Positions 4,242 to 14,647 of a DNA stretch of 64,000 nt are shown here, one piece after another. The stretch covers positions 1 to 64,000 of the forward strand of contig JACPVI010000075.1 of the NCBI GenBank assembly GCA_016191815.1, in the 5' to 3' direction. The translations under genes were made by a program, and so were the position numbers. The stretch's first letter is position 1, and each line of letters starts with the position of its first letter. Below the pieces are notes generated by a model. The model did not search any database. It was not told the origin of the DNA and was given only the letters and a program-made list of their open reading frames with translations. This DNA is from Myxococcales bacterium (GTDB lineage: Bacteria > Myxococcota > Myxococcia > Myxococcales > Myxococcaceae).

Positions 4242-5846
4242 TCAGCCGGCTGCCCGCCTCCCGGCTACCACCAGCTCGGCCAGCTGCCGCGCGAGGTTCT
4301 GGCCCTTCTCCCGGTCCACCATCGAGACCCAGGCGATCATCCCCTGGAGGTAGGCCTCGAAGTTGGGCCGTCCCTCCCGGTTCTGCGCGGCGAGTCCGGT
4401 CTTCCTCGCCTGGTGGAGGATGGCCCGGAGCCGCCGCACCTGCTCCCGCGGCACCGACAGCTTGCGGTTCACCACGATGCCCGTCACCCGCTGCCTCCGC
4501 GAGGAGGAGAGCACGCTCCCCTTCTCCGGGTGCACGGTGAAGCCCTCTTCCTCCACCAGGTGGCGCACCGCCGCCTTGAGGAAACCAACCTTCTCTCGTT
4601 TCCCCGGCGGCGCGGAGAAGGTGAGGTCGTCCGCGTAGCGGGTGTACTCGAAGCCAAGCTTGGCCATCCTCCCGCGAAGCCTTCGGTCCAGCTTCCTCGC
4701 CACCTGGTTGGAGAGCGCCGGGCTGGTGCAGGCCCCTTGGGGCAAGGCGCGCGGCCCCACCGCCACGAAGTAGCGCCTTCCCTCGTACTCCACCTCGCGG
4801 CGCGGGGACTCGGTGCACAACAGCGCCAGCACGGTGGCCACCGCCGGCGAATAGCCCGCCTTCTTGAACACCCCGCGGATCCTGGGGAAGGTGACCGTGG
4901 GGAAGAAGTCCTTGAGGTCCAGGTTCACCACCACGTCTCGCCCCAGATGCGCCGCCGCGTTGGAGACGATGGAGCGGCCCTTCACGAAGCCGTGGGCGGG
5001 CTTCTCGGTGGGTAGCTTTTCCAGGATGCTCCGGAGCACCCACCCTTGCGCCTTGGCCAGCTTCTTCTTCGGCGCGGCCAAGAGCCTCACCCCGCCCGAG
5101 CGCTTGGGCACCTCGAAGGTGCGGTAGTGGGTCCGCTCCGCCGCCTCGGAGTGGAAGCACAGCCAGCGCAGCTCCGGGACCGTCACCTCGAGCGCCTTGG
5201 CCACGTCCGCCGGAGTGGAGAGCACCGGCAGCCCCGCCGCCGCCAGCGCCTCGATGTTCGAGCGCCGGTCGGACAGTCCGCTGGACACCCCAGGGCCTAG
5301 GAAGGCCACCTCCTCCTTCTTCCTCCGGGCGACCTCGGCGGCGCGGGCCTGGGCGCGCTCCTGGGCGAGCTTCTGCTTCTCCGCCTTGCGCTGGGCCTTC
5401 TCCTTCCGCCGCTGCTCTACCGCCTGGTCGGCGCTCTTCGCCGCCAGTGCCCCCGCCATCGACATCGCCTCGTGGTGCTTGAGCCACTGGTCGCCGACGG
5501 TGTGGATTTCCGCGAGCTGCTCCTTGGTGAGCAGCCCGCGGAGGACGAGCCCGCGGTCGACGATCGCCGTCCGCTCGTCGCTCTGCGGAGGAATGACGTC
5601 GGTGCGGCCGATCCAGGCGGTGCGCCAGGGGGTGATTTTCAGCGCGCGCTTGCGCAGCTCCTCCGCGGACAGCCCGAGCACCTCCTCGTTGGCGAGGTAG
5701 GGGTTCTTTGCGGGGGAGGCGGCCGAGGCGGGAGCAGCGGCCCTTGGAACAGGACTGGCACCCGGCGAAGGCGCGGAGGTCTCGAAGTCGCTGGGCGGCT
5801 GGCCGCCGCCGAAGAAACCTCGAACGCGCCCCCAGAAGCTGGCCAT
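4242..5846 (-). CDS. Retron reverse transcriptase
   Basis: A 534-residue retron RT that copies part of its own ncRNA into branched msDNA. RT motifs are clear: motif A with Asp310 (NLDLKDFF), PQGACTSPALSN around 369-380, and YADD at 404-407 with catalytic Asp406/Asp407. Both retron hallmarks are present: NAXXH as NAAAH (296-300) and VTG (454-456, inside QRVTGIVVN). The first 180 residues are not RT: a Pro/Ala-rich stretch to about 47, a conserved-looking helical segment (50-130), and a charged coiled coil (about 138-180). Myxobacterial retron RTs such as that of Mx162 are also unusually long at the N terminus. The ATG at 5846 has a good binding site (GGAAAGAGG) and lies 15 bp after the a2 repeat. 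The ncRNA sits upstream on the same strand, and SWIM and HEAT genes precede it in apparent operon. Confidence 0.95.
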   Translation of the reverse strand: MASFWGRVRGFFGGGQPPSDFETSAPSPGASPVPRAAAPASAASPAKNPYLANEEVLGLSAEELRKRALKITPWRTAWIGRTDVIPPQSDERTAIVDRGLVLRGLLTKEQLAEIHTVGDQWLKHHEAMSMAGALAAKSADQAVEQRRKEKAQRKAEKQKLAQERAQARAAEVARRKKEEVAFLGPGVSSGLSDRRSNIEALAAAGLPVLSTPADVAKALEVTVPELRWLCFHSEAAERTHYRTFEVPKRSGGVRLLAAPKKKLAKAQGWVLRSILEKLPTEKPAHGFVKGRSIVSNAAAHLGRDVVVNLDLKDFFPTVTFPRIRGVFKKAGYSPAVATVLALLCTESPRREVEYEGRRYFVAVGPRALPQGACTSPALSNQVARKLDRRLRGRMAKLGFEYTRYADDLTFSAPPGKREKVGFLKAAVRHLVEEEGFTVHPEKGSVLSSSRRQRVTGIVVNRKLSVPREQVRRLRAILHQARKTGLAAQNREGRPNFEAYLQGMIAWVSMVDREKGQNLARQLAELVVAGRRAAG

Positions 5847-5861
5847 GGCCTCTTTCCGCGC

Positions 5862-5897
5862 GACGTCCAGCCCTCCAGGGAGGCCCCAGCTCGCCCG
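5862..5897 (-). repeat. Retron a2 inverted repeat
   Basis: A 36-nt arm complementary to a1 (33 of 36 aligned positions). It lies 15 bp upstream of the RT start codon. In the folded transcript a1/a2 pairing brings the priming guanosine next to the template end. Confidence 0.9.
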
Positions 5898-5929
5898 ACT
5901 TCGAACCCCTGACCACGTCCGATCACCGA

Positions 5930-6002
5930 GGAATTCGCGGGGGTGTGCGGCCCAGACCCGAAGGGTCGGATTAGTTCAGGCCGTCACACCCCCGTGAATT
6001 CC
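5930..6002 (-). other. msd stem-loop
   Basis: A long stem: GGAATTC, then G-rich residues to 5979, pairs with 5930-5952, giving 22 pairs with one A-C mismatch and one bulged A. The apical loop contains a secondary hairpin (GACCC/GGGTC, 5955-5967). This is the expected hairpin of the DNA part of msDNA. Confidence 0.85.
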
Positions 6003-6045
6003 AAAAAGAGCATCGGGCGTGGGTACGAATGAGAGACGGACTTCC

Positions 6046-6066
6046 GCCGCGGCGGAACACCGCGGC
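6046..6066 (-). other. msr hairpin
   Basis: A perfect 7-bp stem (GCCGCGG/CCGCGGC) with a 7-nt loop, located just inside a1. Retron RTs recognise hairpins in the msr part of the RNA, so this is the likely recognition element. Confidence 0.75.
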
Positions 6067-6077
6067 ACTGAAGGGCT

Positions 6078-6112
6078 CGGGCGAGCGGGGCCTCCTTGCA
6101 GGGCTGGACGTC
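6078..6112 (-). repeat. Retron a1 inverted repeat
   Basis: A 35-nt arm starting GACGTCCAGCCC on the minus strand. It pairs with a2 at 5862-5897 with two mismatches and one unpaired base. It begins a single base after the SWIM gene stop codon (6116-6114), leaving no room for a promoter between that gene and the retron RNA. Confidence 0.9.
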
Positions 6113-6113
6113 A

Positions 6114-7820
6114 TCAGTGAATCCACTTCTTCGGCCCGGTCGGGCCGGGCGGCTCCATATCAGACTCGGTGGCGGGGGTGTCGGCCGCCTGGGCGCAAAG
6201 CCGCAGCGCGATGAGGTGCCGGCAGGGGCCGCCGCGAAGCCTGAGCTTGAAGAAGTGCGAGCAGCCGCAGCGGGCCTTGGAGAAGCCGCCGTCGCCGTCG
6301 AGGATGGCCTCGAAGTCCTGCTCCCCCACCTTTCCAACCAAGAGCCTCCGGGCGCCGGAGAGCAGCTCCTCGCGCACGATGGAGAGCTTCCCCTCGCGGA
6401 AGAGCTGCCGACCCGCCGCCACCTCGGGCGGCTCGGGCCCCAGGAGCGCCTCGGAGAGCGCCACTGGCATGAGCTGGCGCCAGCGGTAGCACTGGCCGGC
6501 GAAGTCGTAGAGCACCTGGCCCTGCTTCGCGAGCTGGTGCAGGGAGCCGAGCACCGCGTCGCGGGGGGCCTCGGCCGCGGCACAGAGGTAGGTGAGCCTG
6601 GCGAACTGCGCCTGCTGGAGGTGGCGGGAGAGCACCGCCAACGTACGCGGCTCGGCGCGGAGCTGGCCGCAGAGCAACTCGAGGCTGGTGCCGCCGCTCC
6701 ACTCGTTGGCGGTCCACCCGGAGAGCCCGAGCACCATCCGCATCTCGCCCATGTGCACCGTCCAGACGCTGGGCAGGCCCGAGCCGAGCAGCTGCACCTC
6801 CACCCGCTCGGCCAGCGGCAAGAGCCGGGCGAGCACCATCAGCCGGCGGCGGCCCCACACCTTTATCTCTTCGGCCTTCTCTCCTTCGTAGGGCGCGCCG
6901 TGGCTCTGCACCGCGACCCCGAAGGGCTCGAGCACCACCGAGGCGGGTCGCCCCGGGGCGAGTTGGAAACGGAGCGAGCGGGGCCCGGTCTTCTCCCGGT
7001 GGCGGCGCAGGAAGGCGAGCAGCGAGTAGACCGCGTCCAGGGACAGCTCCACTCGCCGGGTCTGGAGCGTCATCGCCGCCTGCACCTGGCCGAAGCCGCG
7101 GAGCCAGGAGGTGGGGAGGTCGATCTTCTCCTCCCGGTAGGCCTCCTGGCCCTGCACCTTCACCTCGAAGCCGGTGGGGTCCACCTGGAGGCGGGTCTGC
7201 CGGTAGCTGCGGAGCGTCTGGAAGTGCTCGTAGAGCTGAAAGGAGTAATCGACGTTGGTGGTGCCGAGCCCGGCCTCCTTGCCCTCGAAGGCCTCGCGGT
7301 CCACGAAGAGGCAGCCGTAGGAGGATTCGTCCTTGGCGAAGCACTCGAAGTAGACGACGTCCGGGGCCACCGTCACCACCGGGTCGCAGGGGACGAGGTG
7401 GCGGAACAGCTCGGGGTCGTTCCGGGAGAGCTCATCGGCCCAGCGGGTGCGGGCGTTCCAGTAGAGGCGGTGCATCCGCCGGAAGTCGACCTCCAGGTTG
7501 GGCGCAGGGGGCTCCTTGGTCAGCTTTGCCAGCTCGGCCTTCTTGGCCTGGTCGACCACCGCGCGGCGAAGCTCGGCCTCCACGCGGCGCTCCTCCTCGA
7601 GGTAGGCCTGGTAGGCGGCCCGGCCTCTGGGTTTGAAGCGCAAGTCGCCCACCACCACCTCGTGGAGCGCGCTGATCGCCTCCCGGAAGCGCACCGGGAA
7701 GCGGAGGGCTTGGTCGAAGAAGACTTTTGGCCGGGCGAGGTTGGGGCGGAAGGCGAGCGCCGCGCCGCCGGGGATCTCCACCACCGAGCTTCGGCCGAGG
7801 TACTGCAGCTCGAGGTTCAT
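6114..7820 (-). CDS. SWIM zinc-finger protein, upstream of retron
   Basis: A 568-residue protein. Its one recognisable domain is a C-terminal SWIM zinc finger with pattern CxC-x12-CxH: Cys518, Cys520, Cys533 and His535. SWIM fingers bind zinc and in known families mediate DNA or protein contacts. A segment near residues 410-440 has the spacing of a small winged helix. The rest, including a helical charged stretch around residues 70-105, is not assignable. The ATG at 7820 overlaps the stop of the HEAT-like gene as ATGA, so the two are probably translationally coupled. Its stop codon is followed after one base by the retron a1 repeat. Seen: the SWIM residues and gene packing. Inferred: that it works with the HEAT protein and perhaps with the retron. 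No nuclease or ATPase motif is visible, so an enzymatic role is not supported. Confidence 0.8.
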   Translation of the reverse strand: MNLELQYLGRSSVVEIPGGAALAFRPNLARPKVFFDQALRFPVRFREAISALHEVVVGDLRFKPRGRAAYQAYLEEERRVEAELRRAVVDQAKKAELAKLTKEPPAPNLEVDFRRMHRLYWNARTRWADELSRNDPELFRHLVPCDPVVTVAPDVVYFECFAKDESSYGCLFVDREAFEGKEAGLGTTNVDYSFQLYEHFQTLRSYRQTRLQVDPTGFEVKVQGQEAYREEKIDLPTSWLRGFGQVQAAMTLQTRRVELSLDAVYSLLAFLRRHREKTGPRSLRFQLAPGRPASVVLEPFGVAVQSHGAPYEGEKAEEIKVWGRRRLMVLARLLPLAERVEVQLLGSGLPSVWTVHMGEMRMVLGLSGWTANEWSGGTSLELLCGQLRAEPRTLAVLSRHLQQAQFARLTYLCAAAEAPRDAVLGSLHQLAKQGQVLYDFAGQCYRWRQLMPVALSEALLGPEPPEVAAGRQLFREGKLSIVREELLSGARRLLVGKVGEQDFEAILDGDGGFSKARCGCSHFFKLRLRGGPCRHLIALRLCAQAADTPATESDMEPPGPTGPKKWIH

Positions 7821-9565
7821 GCCGTCACCTGCTCGGAGACGAAGCGCAGCTCGGGGAGCGCCTTGCCGATGGCGGCTCTCAGCTCGGGCCTGTGGAAGGC
7901 CGCGCTGGAGAGGCAGGCGAGCGCAGAGCGACGGTCGGGAGGGCGGATGCTCCTCAGCGCGTGGCCGAGGAGCGGCAGGAGCTTCTCCGCCTCCTCGGGC
8001 TTTCGGGCGATGCGGCTCGCCACCTGCTGGGCCACCGCGCGCTTCACCTTGCCGCCGCGGTGCACCGAGAGGAGCGAGCTGACCCACACCTGCCTCAAGC
8101 TCCCCGGCTCGTAGGCGTGCTCCCGCGCGGAGAGGGAGGCGACCAGCCTCTGGCGGACGTCGTCGTGGGGGCTCTCCGCCATCGCGGTCCAAAGGAGGGT
8201 GCTCTCGCCGAAGCGGGTGTCCTTGTCCATCAGACCGAGGGCGCGGGCGCGGACGTCGGGGAAGCGCGAGTCCAAAAGCTCGCGGACCAGCTCCGGCCTG
8301 GCCTCGTCGTTCATGAGGAGGAGCTGGCACACCCAGTCCACCGCCTCCGCGCGCACCTTGGGGGCGGCGGCGGCGCCGAGCTTCACCATCTCGCGCAGGT
8401 GCTCGGTGCGGAGCTGCTTCCCCCTCGCCCACTTGAGCCCCAGCTCGGCCACCGGGGCGGTGCGGGCGCAGGCGAGGGCGATGCACTGCTCGAGCGAGAG
8501 CCGGTCGGGAGCGACGCTCTTCTCCACCAGCTCGCAGATGAGCGGGAGGGCCTGAGGATTCTCTATCTCCAGGAGTGCGAGCCACTCGTGGAGCGGCAGC
8601 CGCTCCAGCCCGCTCACGCCCTTTAGCAGCTCCGCGCCGAAGGTCTGCACCTCGGGGTGAGGGGACCGCAAGCAAGCACGGACCCGCTCGATGGGGACGC
8701 CCCTCAGGGAGCTTGGCTCGTCGCGCTTGAGCAGGGAGATGGCGAAGGAGCGGACGGTGCGGCTCTTCGCCGCGAGGCACAGCTCGAAGAGCGCGTCGGG
8801 GCAGCCCTTCCAGGCCTGGGGCGCGTACGGCGCGGGGGACAGCTCGGCGAGGGTGTGGCCTTCGGCGACGGTGATGCCCCGCGGCTTTCGGGAGAGCACC
8901 TTGGAGCCGTGGTAGAGCCCGTGCATCAAGCTCCAGGCGTCGATCAGCCGCTCCGGCTTGGAGAGGTGCTCGTCTTGGTAGAGGGCCAGCGCGGCGCGGA
9001 TGGACTTGCCGTAGCGGGCGGGGTCCTTCTTGGCCAGCTTCCGGAAGTAGCGGAAGGCGCGGCGCTGCAGATACTGGCGGGTGACCCGGGTGAAGGTCTC
9101 CAGCGGCTCGTAGAGCTGGTGGCCTTCGGGCGAGCGCCGGGGCTTGCCGTCGCGGCCCTTCTGGCGGCGGGCGCGGAGGGGAATCTTGAGATCGGGCCTC
9201 AGCTCGAAGGTCTCGGTCGGCTGCCGGGCGGCCCAGTCGAAGCCGGTGCGCTTCACCAGGTCCCTGCGCGAGAGGCGGTCGAAGGCGGCGAGGAAGTGTC
9301 CCATCGCCTCGTCGTCCTGGGCGGCTTCGGCGAGCTTGAAGAACGCCTTCACCAGCGGGCGGTGATGGGGCCGCTCGCAGCCGTCGTCGATGTAGCGCAG
9401 CAGCGCCTTGCGGGCGAAGGGACGCCCATCGCGGTACCACTTCTCGGCGAAGGACTTGAGCTTCTTCTCCGAGCGGCTCTGCAGCACCTCGTCGAGGAAG
9501 CGATCCTCGCCGGCCTCGAACAGCTCGTCGAGCATCAAGCTCGAGCTGGCATCAGCCTCCGCCAC
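7817..9565 (-). CDS. HEAT-repeat-like helical protein
   Basis: A 582-residue, mostly alpha-helical protein. From about residue 230 onward it shows degenerate repeated helix pairs typical of HEAT/ARM solenoids (for example around HPEVQTFGAELL, FPDVRARALGLMD and HDDVRQRLVASLS), each with the hydrophobic spacing and a conserved Asp/Val or Arg/Ala core. The N-terminal 220 residues are rich in Arg/Lys/aromatic residues (for example YLQRRAFRYFRKL) and could bind nucleic acid or a partner. No catalytic motif is seen. The start is GTG at 9565; an ATG ten codons later is an alternative, and neither has a strong binding site. It is the first gene of a minus-strand run HEAT-SWIM-retron RNA-RT, so any promoter should lie in 9566-9700. 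HEAT scaffolds usually hold together complexes, which fits a role as a sensor or adaptor, but this is inference. Confidence 0.75.
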   Translation of the reverse strand: MAEADASSSLMLDELFEAGEDRFLDEVLQSRSEKKLKSFAEKWYRDGRPFARKALLRYIDDGCERPHHRPLVKAFFKLAEAAQDDEAMGHFLAAFDRLSRRDLVKRTGFDWAARQPTETFELRPDLKIPLRARRQKGRDGKPRRSPEGHQLYEPLETFTRVTRQYLQRRAFRYFRKLAKKDPARYGKSIRAALALYQDEHLSKPERLIDAWSLMHGLYHGSKVLSRKPRGITVAEGHTLAELSPAPYAPQAWKGCPDALFELCLAAKSRTVRSFAISLLKRDEPSSLRGVPIERVRACLRSPHPEVQTFGAELLKGVSGLERLPLHEWLALLEIENPQALPLICELVEKSVAPDRLSLEQCIALACARTAPVAELGLKWARGKQLRTEHLREMVKLGAAAAPKVRAEAVDWVCQLLLMNDEARPELVRELLDSRFPDVRARALGLMDKDTRFGESTLLWTAMAESPHDDVRQRLVASLSAREHAYEPGSLRQVWVSSLLSVHRGGKVKRAVAQQVASRIARKPEEAEKLLPLLGHALRSIRPPDRRSALACLSSAAFHRPELRAAIGKALPELRFVSEQVTA

Positions 9566-9725: not shown

Positions 9726-10025
9726 ATGGGGGTCCTGGACGAGCTGGGGCGGTGCGTCGGCTTCGATTGGGATGATGGAAACGAAGGGAAGAACCGGGAG
9801 AAGCACGGGGTGTCCGACGCCGAGTGCGAGGAGGTTTTCTTCAACGATCCTCTCGTCGCAGGCACCGATGCGCATCACTCCGGGTCGGAGAAACGCTATT
9901 TCGCCTTGGGCCAGACGGACGCCGGCCGCGGGCTCTTCGTGGCCTTCGCCGTTCGCAGCGGCCGGATTCGGGTGATCTCGGCTCGGGGCATGACGCGGAA
10001 GGAGCTGGGGAGGTATTCGCCGTGA
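9726..10025 (+). CDS. brnT: BrnT-family toxin
   Basis: A 99-residue protein with the BrnT pattern: an early FDWDDGN followed by KNxxKHGVS, then ExxEVFFNDPL, an Arg/Tyr-containing strand (SEKRYFALG) and a final RVISARGMTRKELGRY. BrnT toxins are RelE-like ribonucleases that inhibit translation. Length matches the family (about 90-100 residues). The ATG at 9726 lies 8 bp after the palindrome. The gene overlaps the antitoxin by GTGA (10022-10025), so the pair is translationally coupled with the toxin first, the usual order for BrnTA. The region looks less GC-rich than its neighbours, suggesting acquisition. Confidence in family is high; activity is not shown. Confidence 0.88.
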   Translation: MGVLDELGRCVGFDWDDGNEGKNREKHGVSDAECEEVFFNDPLVAGTDAHHSGSEKRYFALGQTDAGRGLFVAFAVRSGRIRVISARGMTRKELGRYSP

Positions 10026-10312
10026 AGGCCCGAAAGAAGCTGCCGAAGTTCCGTTCGGAGGACCAGGAGCGCAAGTTCTGGGGGCAGGCCGATTCCACCG
10101 ACTATGTCGATTGGGCTCAGGCGAAGCGAGTAGTGCTTCCTGAGCTCAAGCCCTCACAGCGGACGATCTCCCTGCGGCTTCCCGCGATGATGTTGGCTGA
10201 ACTGAAGTGGCTCGCCCACAAACGTGACGTGCCCTACCAGTCTCTGATGAAGGTTTTCGTGGCCGAACGGCTTGCGAAGGAACTGCGCGGTCCGCGGCCG
10301 GCGAGGGACTAG
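10022..10312 (+). CDS. CopG-type antitoxin
   Basis: A 96-residue antitoxin partner. Its GTG start at 10022 overlaps the toxin stop codon. The N-terminal part (KLPKFRSEDQERKFW, then DSTDYVDW) matches the toxin-binding leader of CopG antitoxins of type II systems, and the C-terminal part (TISLRLPAMMLAELKWLA) is a ribbon-helix-helix DNA-binding segment. It should neutralise the toxin and repress the operon through the palindrome at 9699-9717. The symbol brnA could apply, but the sequence also fits the general CopG antitoxin family, so I leave it unnamed. Confidence 0.85.
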   Translation: MKARKKLPKFRSEDQERKFWGQADSTDYVDWAQAKRVVLPELKPSQRTISLRLPAMMLAELKWLAHKRDVPYQSLMKVFVAERLAKELRGPRPARD

Positions 10313-10406: not shown

Positions 10407-12617
10407 ATGCGCAACTTGCTGGCTGTGCTCTTGCTCGGCCTTGCGCCTCCTTCGCTGGCCCAGGTCTCCGCCCGCTCTCCGGCGATAGACGTCCACGTCC
10501 ACCTGGGAGGGGTGTGGAACTACCCGGGCGTGCCGCCGAGCTTCTCGGAAATCACCACCTCCATGGCCCAGCGCAACGTGCAGGCGGTGGTGGACTTCAA
10601 GGCCGGCGCCCTCGCGGACGGCGGCACCGCGATGGGCATCTACGGCTCGCGGGTCGACACCCGGCTCTCCCAGTACCCGGACCGCACGAAGTTCAAGCTG
10701 CTCGCCAACGTGCCGACCAGCAACGAGTGGCAGAAGTTTCTGGGCGAGAGCATGCCCGGCTATCCGCAGTGGGCGGCCTCTTTGGCGGAGGACGCCATCT
10801 CCCGAGGCGCCTCGGGAATCAAGTTCCGCTACAACGGCGGAGGCCCGGAAGGGCCCGCCCTCACCTTCGCCTCGAACGGCGACCTAAAGGCCATCGACGC
10901 CCCTGAGTTCGACTTGATGTGGAAGAAGCTCGAGGAGCTGCGCGCGCCGGTCCTGATGCACTTGGGCCCGGCCTACCTCGCGGACTACTCCCCCACCAAC
11001 TGGGCCAAGGACTGGTGGTTCGAGCTGCTGATGCACCAGCGGGAGCGGGTGCTCCGGCGCTACCCGAAGCTGCCGCACATCGGCGCGCACCTCGGCTCGG
11101 GCATCGGCGCCCTGGACTACCAGGCCGAAATGCTGAGCCGCTTCCCCAATTACTTCTGCGAGCTGGGCGCCCACGTGAGCAACGACATCTTCGGCACGGT
11201 GGACTCGATCGAGAAGGCCTTCCTCGAGAGGCACCAGGATCAGCTCGTCTTCGGCACCGACTACATGGAAGCCACCATGGGCTGGCTCACCTCGTACCTG
11301 CAGCGGCTGGACATGATGCTGCCCTTCATCGAGGCCTGGCCGATCTCCAACTCCGTGTTCCAGAAGTTCTACAACGGCAACGCCAGCCGGATTTTCCGGA
11401 TGGGCACCTCGAACACCGCGCCCCAGGCCCACCCCGGCTTCGCCCGCACCGCGGTGGTCGGCCAACCGGTGGTGCTCAGCGGCACCGGCAGCCTCGACTA
11501 CGAGGGCTCGGCGCTCAGCTATCAATGGAGCCAGGTGGAGGGACCTCCGGTGGCGCTCTCGAACGCCAGCTCCGGCGCGCCTTCGTTCGTCCCGGTCCTG
11601 GAGGCCGTCCACACCTTCGAGCTGACCGTCAGCGACGGGGCCCTCACCAGCGCCGCCCGGCAAGTCGCCGTCAACGCGGTGGCCGACGGCGAGGTGTTCG
11701 TCGAGGCGGACGGGAAGGTGGTGATCGAGGCCGAGCACGCCAGCCGGAACACCCCTCGCGGCACACACCAGTGGAAGCTGGAGACCGCGGCCGCGGGCTA
11801 TTCCGGCGACGGTTACCTCGAAGCCTCTCCCGACAACGGCTTCTCGGTCGCCGGGTCCTTCCGGGCGGTCTCCCCGCAGCTCGAGTACAAGGTCTTCTTC
11901 ACCTCTCCTGGCTCGTACGTGGTGCTCCTGCGCGGCTCGGGGCCGAACCTCGGCGGCGACAGCGTGCACCTGGGGCTGGATGGAGAGGAGGTCCGCTTCG
12001 CGGATCAAATCGGCCCCTTGACCTCCTCCTGGAGCTGGATCCGCCAGACCCAAGACTACGACGCGCAGCTCCAGCAGGCTCGGGTAGGCCTGGCGGTGGT
12101 GAACGTCGCCGAGCCCGGGCTGCACACCATCCAGGTGTGGATGCACGAGGACGGCTTCCGCCTGGACAAGCTGGTGCTGGCCCGGCACGCCGCGGTGTTG
12201 AAGAGTTTTCCCATCTTCGACCCCGGCACCGGCGCCGGCCCGCCGGAGAGCGTTCGGAAGTCGCTCGGCGACCTCGCCGATGCTGGGACGCCCCTCCTCG
12301 ACGGGGGCGCGGACCTCGACGGCGGCGGTGACATGGACGGCGGTGCGGGCAGTGACGGGGGTACCGAAGGAGATGGCGGCTTTCCCGACGCGGGCGGCGA
12401 CCCGAAAGCCGGTCGTCCCGGCTGCGGCTGCACCTCGGCCTGGTCGCTCGTGGGCTGGTTGGCGCTGATCGGGATCGCCCTCCCCCTTCGCAGGACGGGC
12501 GATGACGGACGGCCCCGGTCGGACCGGCCTCGTAACAGGCCATCAGCTCGCCCGGCATGCAACAGGCGGCCGAACGGAGTCGTCGCCGGGCGCGGGACTG
12601 TCAGGCCCGGCGCCTGA
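10407..12617 (+). CDS. Secreted amidohydrolase with Ig-like, CBM-like and MYXO-CTERM parts
   Basis: A 736-residue exported protein. After a signal peptide (1-19), residues about 25-330 form an amidohydrolase-2 type TIM barrel with the metal-binding DVHVHLGG, later MHLGP, GAHLGSGIG and FGTDYM signatures. An Ig/PKD-like beta domain follows (about 345-425: VVLSGTGSLDYEG), then a carbohydrate-binding-like domain opening with VVIEAEHASRN. A Gly/Asp-rich linker (about 630-665) leads to a MYXO-CTERM-type tag: GCGCTS, a hydrophobic helix and Arg-Arg. The ATG at 10407 has GGGAGG upstream. Oddly, about 40 Arg/Pro-rich residues continue past the tag, although such proteins normally end right after the arginines. 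The tag DNA is duplicated at 14729, so the original 3' end may have been displaced. Substrate is unknown. Confidence 0.82.
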   Translation: MRNLLAVLLLGLAPPSLAQVSARSPAIDVHVHLGGVWNYPGVPPSFSEITTSMAQRNVQAVVDFKAGALADGGTAMGIYGSRVDTRLSQYPDRTKFKLLANVPTSNEWQKFLGESMPGYPQWAASLAEDAISRGASGIKFRYNGGGPEGPALTFASNGDLKAIDAPEFDLMWKKLEELRAPVLMHLGPAYLADYSPTNWAKDWWFELLMHQRERVLRRYPKLPHIGAHLGSGIGALDYQAEMLSRFPNYFCELGAHVSNDIFGTVDSIEKAFLERHQDQLVFGTDYMEATMGWLTSYLQRLDMMLPFIEAWPISNSVFQKFYNGNASRIFRMGTSNTAPQAHPGFARTAVVGQPVVLSGTGSLDYEGSALSYQWSQVEGPPVALSNASSGAPSFVPVLEAVHTFELTVSDGALTSAARQVAVNAVADGEVFVEADGKVVIEAEHASRNTPRGTHQWKLETAAAGYSGDGYLEASPDNGFSVAGSFRAVSPQLEYKVFFTSPGSYVVLLRGSGPNLGGDSVHLGLDGEEVRFADQIGPLTSSWSWIRQTQDYDAQLQQARVGLAVVNVAEPGLHTIQVWMHEDGFRLDKLVLARHAAVLKSFPIFDPGTGAGPPESVRKSLGDLADAGTPLLDGGADLDGGGDMDGGAGSDGGTEGDGGFPDAGGDPKAGRPGCGCTSAWSLVGWLALIGIALPLRRTGDDGRPRSDRPRNRPSARPACNRRPNGVVAGRGTVRPGA
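12433..12482 (+). repeat. Direct repeat L, MYXO-CTERM coding
   Basis: This 50-bp segment matches 14729-14778 at 49 of 50 positions, in the same orientation. It encodes the hydrophobic part of the MYXO-CTERM tag of the upstream amidohydrolase. The two copies bracket the AbiE-like gene pair. Confidence 0.85.
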
Positions 12618-13428
12618 CACTGGTCGCCAGGAAGCGGCGGATCCCGGCCGCCAGCGTGCCGCCGATCTGCTCCGCGAGCGGAGCAGGGCTTCTCCCCGAC
12701 TCCCGTGCGATCTCGGCTGCGGCGCGAACAGTGTCGCTCGGAAGCTCCAGCGCGGCCGCCATCTCGATGAGCTTCTCGCGTGCCGACTTGCTCAGGCATG
12801 CACGGACCTTCGCGGCGCTCTCGCGGAGTTCCTCGTCCCGGCCCGCAAAGAGCACGAGTGTGTCGAAGGCGTACAGCACGTCCTTGGTGCGCTTTGCGCG
12901 ATCTGGTCGCTGGGTTGAGACAAGGAGCTTGTGAAGGGCGTAGGCGACCGGGTTGGGCAGCTGGACCTCGATGGTCGCTGCCACGGGATAGCCGGTTTCA
13001 CCCGTGAGCTCGACCTTCCAGGGGCTCACGAGGAGCACGTCGAGCCCCTTGATCGTCGAAGCCGAGACGCCCCCGATGTCCCTTGTCGGAGGCGGGGGCC
13101 TTCGGGAGCGCGGCTCTGGGGTCAGAAACTCAATGGGCGCGCCAGGGTACGCCGGGTGTACGTAGTCAGCGACAGCGGGGCGCTCGTCTCCTGGCTTGGG
13201 CCTCATCGAGAAACCGGCGGCGGACAGCCTGCTCGAGATATCGACCGAGGTTCGCGGCCCGCTGAACAACACGTCGACGTCCTTGGTGACGAGGGGTTGA
13301 AGTCCCGACCGCACGGCCAGCGGATGGAGGCAAAGCAACCGGTGAGCCCACCCGCCGATCACGAGGATTTCACTCGAGGCCGGGCCGAGCGCCTCGAGGA
13401 ACCGCACGAGAAGTTCGCGGTCAGTCAT
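12601..13428 (-). CDS. AbiEii-like nucleotidyltransferase
   Basis: A 275-residue protein with a nucleotidyltransferase fold. The active-site pattern is IGGWAHRL (40-47) followed by TKDVDVLF, supplying the paired Asp residues that bind metal in AbiEii/MenA-type toxins, with a later strand APIEFLTP as the likely third acidic position. The C-terminal helical half resembles the substrate-binding part of such enzymes. In known systems the toxin transfers nucleotides to tRNA or other targets and is silenced by the partner. Its ATG at 13428 overlaps the partner's stop by 8 bp, so translation is coupled with the regulator first, as in AbiE. The DNA of this pair looks less GC-rich than the flanks. It could instead be a GrbA-like or chromosomal nucleotidyltransferase; target unknown. 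Confidence 0.7.
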   Translation of the reverse strand: MTDRELLVRFLEALGPASSEILVIGGWAHRLLCLHPLAVRSGLQPLVTKDVDVLFSGPRTSVDISSRLSAAGFSMRPKPGDERPAVADYVHPAYPGAPIEFLTPEPRSRRPPPPTRDIGGVSASTIKGLDVLLVSPWKVELTGETGYPVAATIEVQLPNPVAYALHKLLVSTQRPDRAKRTKDVLYAFDTLVLFAGRDEELRESAAKVRACLSKSAREKLIEMAAALELPSDTVRAAAEIARESGRSPAPLAEQIGGTLAAGIRRFLATSVRRRA

Positions 13429-14647
13429 GCTCGCTCAGGCACGGGGCGATGAGATCGCGCCACAATCGCTCGCCGAGTTCAGCCCCTCGAGCCGCGTGAT
13501 GTGACACGTCCATCCAGGTCTGAAGCACATCGGTGAAGTGGTAGACAAGCTGATCTCCGAGGTCGGGATCGGGTTGGTGAAGCGCTCCGCGGAAAAGCGC
13601 CTCTGGGAAGCGCGGCACGCGAATGATGAGGTCGAAGGGCTCTTGAGCGCCAACAGGAATTGCGTCGATGTCGTGAAGGAGCTTCTGATCTACCGGCGGA
13701 CCGTCTCGGCGGCGGAGGTAGACGATGTGCGGTGCATTTGCCACGTGGCGCTGCCCCAGGTGCTCGGCCGCGTCGAAGAGCCCAAACACCAAGTCCAGGG
13801 ATGGATCACTGAATCGCTGCTCGAGCATCCAACGGGCGGACGTCAACGCCGAGTCCTTCAAACGAACTCGGTACTGGAGCCGGACGCCCCTAGCCAGCGC
13901 GGCTCTCCATCGACCGAGGAGCTCGCTGACGCGGACGAGCTCGATGGACGCCCGCCGGGGGTCGACGAAGCCCTCCGTCCTGAGCCGGTGCAAGAGGCGA
14001 GTCGCGACTGGCAGCGACACGTCGGCAGCCTCCGCCAGAACCGACGCGTTCCGATACGGCGCGCCTTCGGGCCGCCACAGCTGCGACCGCGGGAAGAGAT
14101 CAGACAGCAGAACCTTGAGCACCCACTGGTTCAGGTCCGTGAACAGCTCGCCAGACACCGAGGCTTGCGGCACCCGCGGCTTGAAGCCTGCTGGCTGGTC
14201 AATGGACAACCCACTGGACCTCACCACCACGCGGCCGGCGTCATCGGCGATGCCCCAACCCACGCCACCACCAGACTCCTGCATGAACTCCACGAGGCGT
14301 GCCTCGAGCCTTTGAGAGACTCGTGGTGCCGAGACGACTGCCAGCGGCTCCGGGTGAGTCGTCGAACCAGCGACCTCCGCCCGTGCCCTGAGCACTGCCA
14401 CGGCGAGCGCCCCCTCAAGGCGGTCACCGCGGACCTCCGGGCTGCGTTCTACCCAGCAGAGGAACGACCGCCGGCCGGAGCGCAATGTGAGACCTTCAAC
14501 CCTCCAGCCGCTCCGTTTCACTGCTGTTGCGAGCGCAGCAGGGAGGTCCGGGCTCGTTTTCGTGCTCAAGAGCAATTTCTTGCTCACGAGAGTATTCTTG
14601 CCCACGAAATGGGGCCGGGTCAAGGCCCCCTCCGCGCCGCACCTCAT
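13421..14647 (-). CDS. AbiEi-like winged-helix regulator
   Basis: A 408-residue protein with a central winged-helix segment (about 200-250: NASVLAEAADVSLPVATRLL, then LRTEGFVD) and a C-terminal domain ending in DVLQTWMDVSHHAARGAEL, the pattern of AbiEi-type antitoxins, which cap and repress the partner toxin. The N-terminal 190 residues form an unassigned domain. I chose the ATG at 14647 because AGAGGAG sits six bases upstream; a GTG at 14587 is an alternative without a binding site. An inverted repeat (GAGCAA-N4-TTGCTC, near 14570-14585) lies just inside the coding region and could be a regulatory site. It is the first gene of a two-gene unit with the nucleotidyltransferase. Inferred role: antitoxin and autorepressor. 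Confidence 0.65.
   Translation of the reverse strand: MRCGAEGALTRPHFVGKNTLVSKKLLLSTKTSPDLPAALATAVKRSGWRVEGLTLRSGRRSFLCWVERSPEVRGDRLEGALAVAVLRARAEVAGSTTHPEPLAVVSAPRVSQRLEARLVEFMQESGGGVGWGIADDAGRVVVRSSGLSIDQPAGFKPRVPQASVSGELFTDLNQWVLKVLLSDLFPRSQLWRPEGAPYRNASVLAEAADVSLPVATRLLHRLRTEGFVDPRRASIELVRVSELLGRWRAALARGVRLQYRVRLKDSALTSARWMLEQRFSDPSLDLVFGLFDAAEHLGQRHVANAPHIVYLRRRDGPPVDQKLLHDIDAIPVGAQEPFDLIIRVPRFPEALFRGALHQPDPDLGDQLVYHFTDVLQTWMDVSHHAARGAELGERLWRDLIAPCLSEHD

Follow-up and report, generated by a model that had tools for sequence, protein, structure and literature searches.

The minus-strand locus at positions 9565 to 4242 of the window, i.e., of the whole 64,000-nucleotide stretch of a Myxococcales bacterium contig analysed here, is, judging by its protein sequences, a complete retron of the already catalogued type XIII. 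A HEAT-repeat gene, a SWIM zinc-finger gene, the retron msr-msd RNA and the gene for the retron reverse transcriptase (RT) follow one another in this order, and the same four-element layout is also present in the loci of relatives. The original prediction gave the right coordinates for this unit and took it for an undescribed retron type. The latter claim fell, because the three proteins match the PADLOC models HEAT-ARM_XIII, SWIM_XIII and RT_XIII over almost their full length, and these near end-to-end matches assign the locus to type XIII: the RT belongs to the clade of that type and is linked to its SWIM and HEAT/ARM families, and neither the accessory genes nor the RT lie outside the types described in PADLOC. 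Between the compact HEAT protein and those of Mx162-type loci there is just a distant similarity (phmmer, ~31 bits), and neither Pfam nor NCBIfam has a family name covering the HEAT-SWIM pair, which would suit a new type, but PADLOC-DB (2023) holds type XIII models for exactly these three proteins. A previously undescribed type is thus highly improbable, refuted by the PADLOC matches, and all that is left of the idea is a subtype within type XIII. This type covers the lineage of the first-found retrons, that of myxobacterial msDNA, and its name is reportedly taken from the classification by Mestre et al. 2020.

Locus architecture and proteins

The first gene (7817-9565, minus strand, as are all elements of the locus) encodes an alpha-solenoid HEAT-repeat protein of 582 aa, which matches HEAT-ARM_XIII (PDLC02922) with 618.8 bits over profile positions 2-563 of 564, while the Pfam HEAT_2 score of 25.9 bits is slightly below the cut-off. 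Its AlphaFold model is an almost entirely helical solenoid (pLDDT 70), with which Foldseek retrieved generic HEAT/ARM solenoids only, at low TM-scores, and the search of solved structures with the HEAT profile gave no significant match. The second gene (6114-7820) encodes the SWIM zinc-finger protein of 568 aa, which matches SWIM_XIII (PDLC02972) with 573 bits over positions 1-504 of 509. Its finger, CxCx12CxH (6216-6269), scores 16.7 bits against Pfam SWIM and does not reach the cut-off of 19.6, and its ligands C518, C520, C533 and H535 are unchanged in 18 homologues, retron-linked and retron-free alike. The AlphaFold model of the SWIM protein, computed with three sequences, has a pLDDT of 37 and is too poor to judge any hidden fold or domain. 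Nothing significant was retrieved from solved structures with the SWIM profile, the weak winged-helix matches around profile positions 333-422 having E-values of 0.05 or worse, and no match to the SWIM protein was found in the phage records searched.

The RT (4242-5846; 534 aa) carries an N-terminal extension of ~195 residues, and its best match among 47 PADLOC models is RT_XIII (PDLC02956) with 538.3 bits, followed by a model with 370.4 bits. It is matched by Pfam RVT_1, and the closest solved chain is the Ec86 RT (E = 4e-44, residues 200-480). The motifs expected of a retron RT are all present, i.e., NAxxH as NAAAH (residues 296-300), YxDD as YADD (404-407) and VTG (454-456), and the catalytic YADD (4626-4637) does not vary among the 12 type XIII RTs that were aligned. 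The RTs of two other genomes, G150 and G184 (L036:1591-3660 and L037:1550-3631), have an extra N-terminal region of ~150-200 residues, with two similar segments past a conserved start, SFWxxVxxxF, which is also present in the window RT.

The elements are packed as the original prediction described them. The HEAT stop and the SWIM start are contained in a single ATGA at 7820-7817, read directly from the sequence, and the identical 4-nt overlap occurs in Pyxidicoccus fallax, Myxococcus sp. RHSTA-1-4 and genome G088, which suggests translational coupling of the two genes. The a1 arm of the retron RNA begins at base 1 past the SWIM stop if a T-G wobble is counted or at base 2 with the first Watson-Crick pair, and the RT reading frame (5846-4242) lies downstream of the RNA. 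With all four elements on one strand in the order HEAT, SWIM, msr-msd and RT, overlapping or abutting, the locus is probably read as a single transcript. The claim that there is no room for a separate promoter before the RNA holds in that a1 abuts the SWIM stop, but a promoter could lie within the SWIM coding sequence, where a sigma-70 scan, uninformative for such a genome, found none.

Two further gene pairs are located upstream of the locus. A BrnT toxin/CopG-type antitoxin (BrnTA) pair (9726-10312, plus strand; PF04365, PF12441) is divergent from the HEAT gene; it was rejected as a part of the system, as neither protein has a homologue flanking other type XIII loci. At 12601-14647 on the minus strand, a nucleotidyltransferase gene (NTP_transf_8, PF12281) overlaps an upstream gene of no known family whose product resembles a winged-helix protein, a layout similar to AbiEi/AbiEii-type toxin-antitoxin pairs, to which no PADLOC model matches.

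The msr-msd RNA

The retron RNA occupies positions 6113-5861 (minus strand) within the 267-nt gap between the SWIM and RT genes, and the sequence from the SWIM stop onward reads TGA followed by TGACGTCCAGCCCTGCAAGGAGGCCCC. Because an Rfam scan of the whole window at gathering thresholds gave no match, the RNA was assessed by covariation in an alignment of the window gap with its counterparts in five relatives, including P. fallax and Myxococcus sp. RHSTA-1-4. The gap folds far better than expected (z = -9.78; 0 of 200 shuffles equally good), standard pairs fill 88.6% of the pair cells of the six-sequence alignment, and compensatory changes on both sides are seen in 36 of 78 pairs, against 18 in the shuffled control and 6-20 with slid partners. 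The msr-msd RNA is therefore real and its structure is supported by covariation.

The a1 arm (6077-6113), starting 1-2 nt past the SWIM stop, pairs with the a2 arm (5861-5898, read as 5898-5861), and 13 of the 25 pairs of this main helix carry compensatory changes. Next to the a1/a2 stem lies the GAGC motif, whose G at 6076 is, by position and motif (PMC6868368), the candidate branching G and probable primer site of the msDNA; this G is unchanged in all six aligned relatives. The adjacent msr hairpin (6046-6066) has 98% of its cells paired, its core GGTGTTCCGCC is invariant among the six sequences, and a looser form of the core, GGYGTTNCGYC, recurs in the majority of the other type XIII loci inspected, 47-128 nt past the SWIM stop. 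The approximate msd template (5899-6030), with a putative far msDNA boundary, contains a long hairpin (arms 6002-5985 and 5947-5930), in which 18 of 21 pairs are compensatory and the sequence varies almost freely while the pairing is kept. The gap thus contains what a retron RNA consists of: an a1/a2 inverted repeat, a presumptive priming G past a1 and an msd hairpin adjoining the RT.

Relatives, linkage and distribution

Type XIII loci share with the window locus the gene order and the RNA between SWIM and RT, and no type-defining difference was found; they differ in the form of the HEAT-type partner, which is a compact HEAT, a 909-aa HEAT with a 2177-aa WD40-HEAT protein (Mx162-type) or a WGR-HEAT. 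The window has the compact 582-aa HEAT (PDLC02922); for the WGR form, PADLOC lists a WGR_XIII model under the same type. Two of the loci compared, L039 and L040, appear to be retrons of the Mxa1/Mx162 kind by their CAGC motif and N-terminally extended RT. They resemble the window in the SWIM-RNA-RT order, in the sequences of SWIM (33%) and RT (40-44%) and in a related msr hairpin, but they carry the 909-aa HEAT and 2177-aa WD40-HEAT in place of the compact HEAT, their a1 is offset by 71 nt from the SWIM stop as against 1 nt in the window, and their priming motif is CAGC instead of GAGC. According to a published description, GAGC is the Mx65 motif and CAGC that of Mx162 (PMC6868368); "Mx162-like", as the retron was called in the original prediction, is therefore a loose label; the window RT and the Mx162-type RT of L040 share ~40-44% identity. 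In L040 (2481-15457) the Mx162-type retron lies downstream of the 909-aa HEAT and 2177-aa WD40-HEAT genes, an unusually large partner set for a retron, and such a locus takes ~13 kb, compared with ~5.3 kb for the compact three-gene locus. The WGR-type loci (L041 and its relatives) are similarly close to the window (SWIM 38-40%, RT 40-43%) and place the RNA likewise, and in L041 and L042 a1 starts 5-6 nt past the SWIM stop; L041 encodes a 1034-aa WGR-HEAT instead of the compact HEAT and, upstream, an extra WGR and beta-propeller protein.

The conserved linkage of SWIM and retron, proposed as a check of the original prediction, was found in a survey of 193 Myxococcota genomes, in which SWIM_XIII places were counted at E below 1e-50: at 106 of the 121 places a same-strand RT_XIII lies downstream, no more than 10 kb away. 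The remaining 15 comprise seven in retron-free operons of SWIM and DUF6493 genes and eight of the retron type; the genomes of the latter all contain an additional RT_XIII or a piece of an RT, which is ~60 kb away in G177 and on a different contig in all other cases. The HEAT-SWIM pair of G192 is only a possible orphan, as an RT fragment, 64% identical, lies on a separate contig. SWIM and RT have co-diverged, as their distances correlate across 16 retron loci (r = 0.97, Mantel p = 0.0002), and this, together with the tight linkage across a phylum, supports the view of the locus as one functional unit. In genus g17, several kb separate SWIM and RT (L047:14099-17508 and L048:12942-18011; ~60 kb in G177:C1), and the spacer of one genome encodes a LysM protein, that of another a Tox-REase-5 protein with an AAA_21 ATPase; such spacers may be insertions or captured cargo.

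The compact subtype, counted with a full-length or contig-split HEAT, occurs in 7 of the 193 genomes, in five genera of two families, and is thus patchy across genera; a single-protein scan of genome contigs retrieved just two named relatives. Mx162-type loci, on the other hand, were found in almost every genome sampled from the genus groups g5 and g7. Outside myxobacteria, we found type XIII on a megaplasmid of Methylobacterium bullatum (L050), with the SWIM-RT layout of the WGR-type loci, and it has been described in a Variovorax strain (PMC11953036).

Possible function and origin of the HEAT-SWIM pair

Searches of Pfam, NCBIfam and solved-structure profiles detected no catalytic effector domain in HEAT or SWIM, in agreement with the original remark that no classic effector is visible. 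It is plausible that SWIM serves as a nucleic-acid binder and HEAT as a sensor or scaffold, and because no enzyme domain was detected in either protein, binding of nucleic acid by SWIM on the HEAT scaffold is the best guess for the output of the system. In the retrons Ec86, Ec83 and Eco8, msDNA latches the effector in an inactive state, from which it is freed through binding, modification or degradation of the msDNA by phage proteins (PMC13158370). By analogy, we consider it fairly probable that in this type XIII retron the RT-msDNA restrains HEAT-SWIM as long as no phage interferes with the msDNA. According to established retron biochemistry, the RT would recognise the RNA closed by a1/a2 and prime at the G of GAGC past a1, yielding msDNA with a long hairpin. 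The RT-msDNA particle would then bind the HEAT-SWIM pair and hold it inactive, as the three analogues suggest; a phage protein that binds, modifies or degrades the msDNA would free the pair, which could halt growth or phage replication, most likely by way of a scaffolding HEAT and a SWIM that contacts nucleic acid, and not through a known enzyme domain. Complex formation, inhibition, trigger, toxicity and phage defence are all modelled on the better-known retrons, and the literature searched yielded no paper with a phage test of any type XIII retron or a test of its partner proteins.

The main functional rival is a housekeeping or stress role in myxobacteria, in which msDNA and the HEAT-SWIM pair would act in DNA repair or regulation and not against phages, given that almost all genomes of some genera, such as g5 and g7, carry the larger subtypes, and that vertical inheritance has been stated for myxobacterial retrons (PMC6868368). 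The SWIM, WGR and HEAT/WD40 proteins of these loci, none with a toxin domain, would fit such a role as well. We consider it unlikely, however, as the compact subtype is patchy, type XIII extends beyond myxobacteria to the M. bullatum megaplasmid and the Variovorax strain, and the other retron types of tested function are defence systems.

A different question is raised by the retron-free operons. In seven Myxococcota genomes a divergent SWIM_XIII homologue is directly followed by DUF6493, and the places of the two families, seven each, coincide. Similar pairs extend to other phyla: Diaphorobacter and Asticcacaulis have the same two- or three-gene order on plasmids, and in Streptomyces SWIM is paired with a DUF7824 protein. 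Operons of SWIM with one or two DUF6493/DUF7824 proteins (L049:4338-8512, L051:6752-13085, L052:6782-10727 and L053:6776-11064) span Myxococcota, Comamonadaceae, Streptomyces and Asticcacaulis, no RT was found near them, and no paper on the SWIM-DUF6493 pair or its function was found in the literature searched. Like the window locus, they couple a SWIM protein tightly to a partner gene, and all the SWIM proteins compared, retron-linked and retron-free, share the four zinc ligands and ~25 further invariant residues; the operons differ in that no adjoining RT was found and in having a SWIM without the first ~100 residues and a partner with no detectable homology to HEAT. The original prediction named a HEAT-SWIM pair commonly found without a retron and never tightly linked to one as a finding that would speak against it, and this applies in part and only at a distance: the remoter SWIM family pairs with DUF6493 retron-free, but the HEAT and SWIM of type XIII stay with the retron.

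These operons, together with their shared invariant residues and a neighbourhood of mobile or conflict-related genes (integrase, VapBC, transposases, a HEPN protein), make it a serious possibility, though one we hold at less than even, that SWIM and its solenoid partner form an effector module in their own right, captured by the retron, which would be only its sensor or antitoxin, while elsewhere SWIM with DUF6493 works without RT. As the profile comparison of type XIII HEAT with DUF6493 did not detect homology (probability 0.4%), the pairing may be parallel and not inherited. Still more tentatively, and with some doubt, we speculate that the ancestral state is a conflict module made of SWIM and an alpha-helical solenoid and independent of retrons, that SWIM-DUF6493 operons are a defence or toxin system of their own, and that type XIII could have arisen when an RT/msDNA sensor gained control of the module, with SWIM as the shared effector.

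The compact three-gene locus offers a convenient form of the type for expression and testing. The retron-free SWIM-DUF6493 operons, in turn, provide a way to ask which part of the system is the effector and which the sensor.
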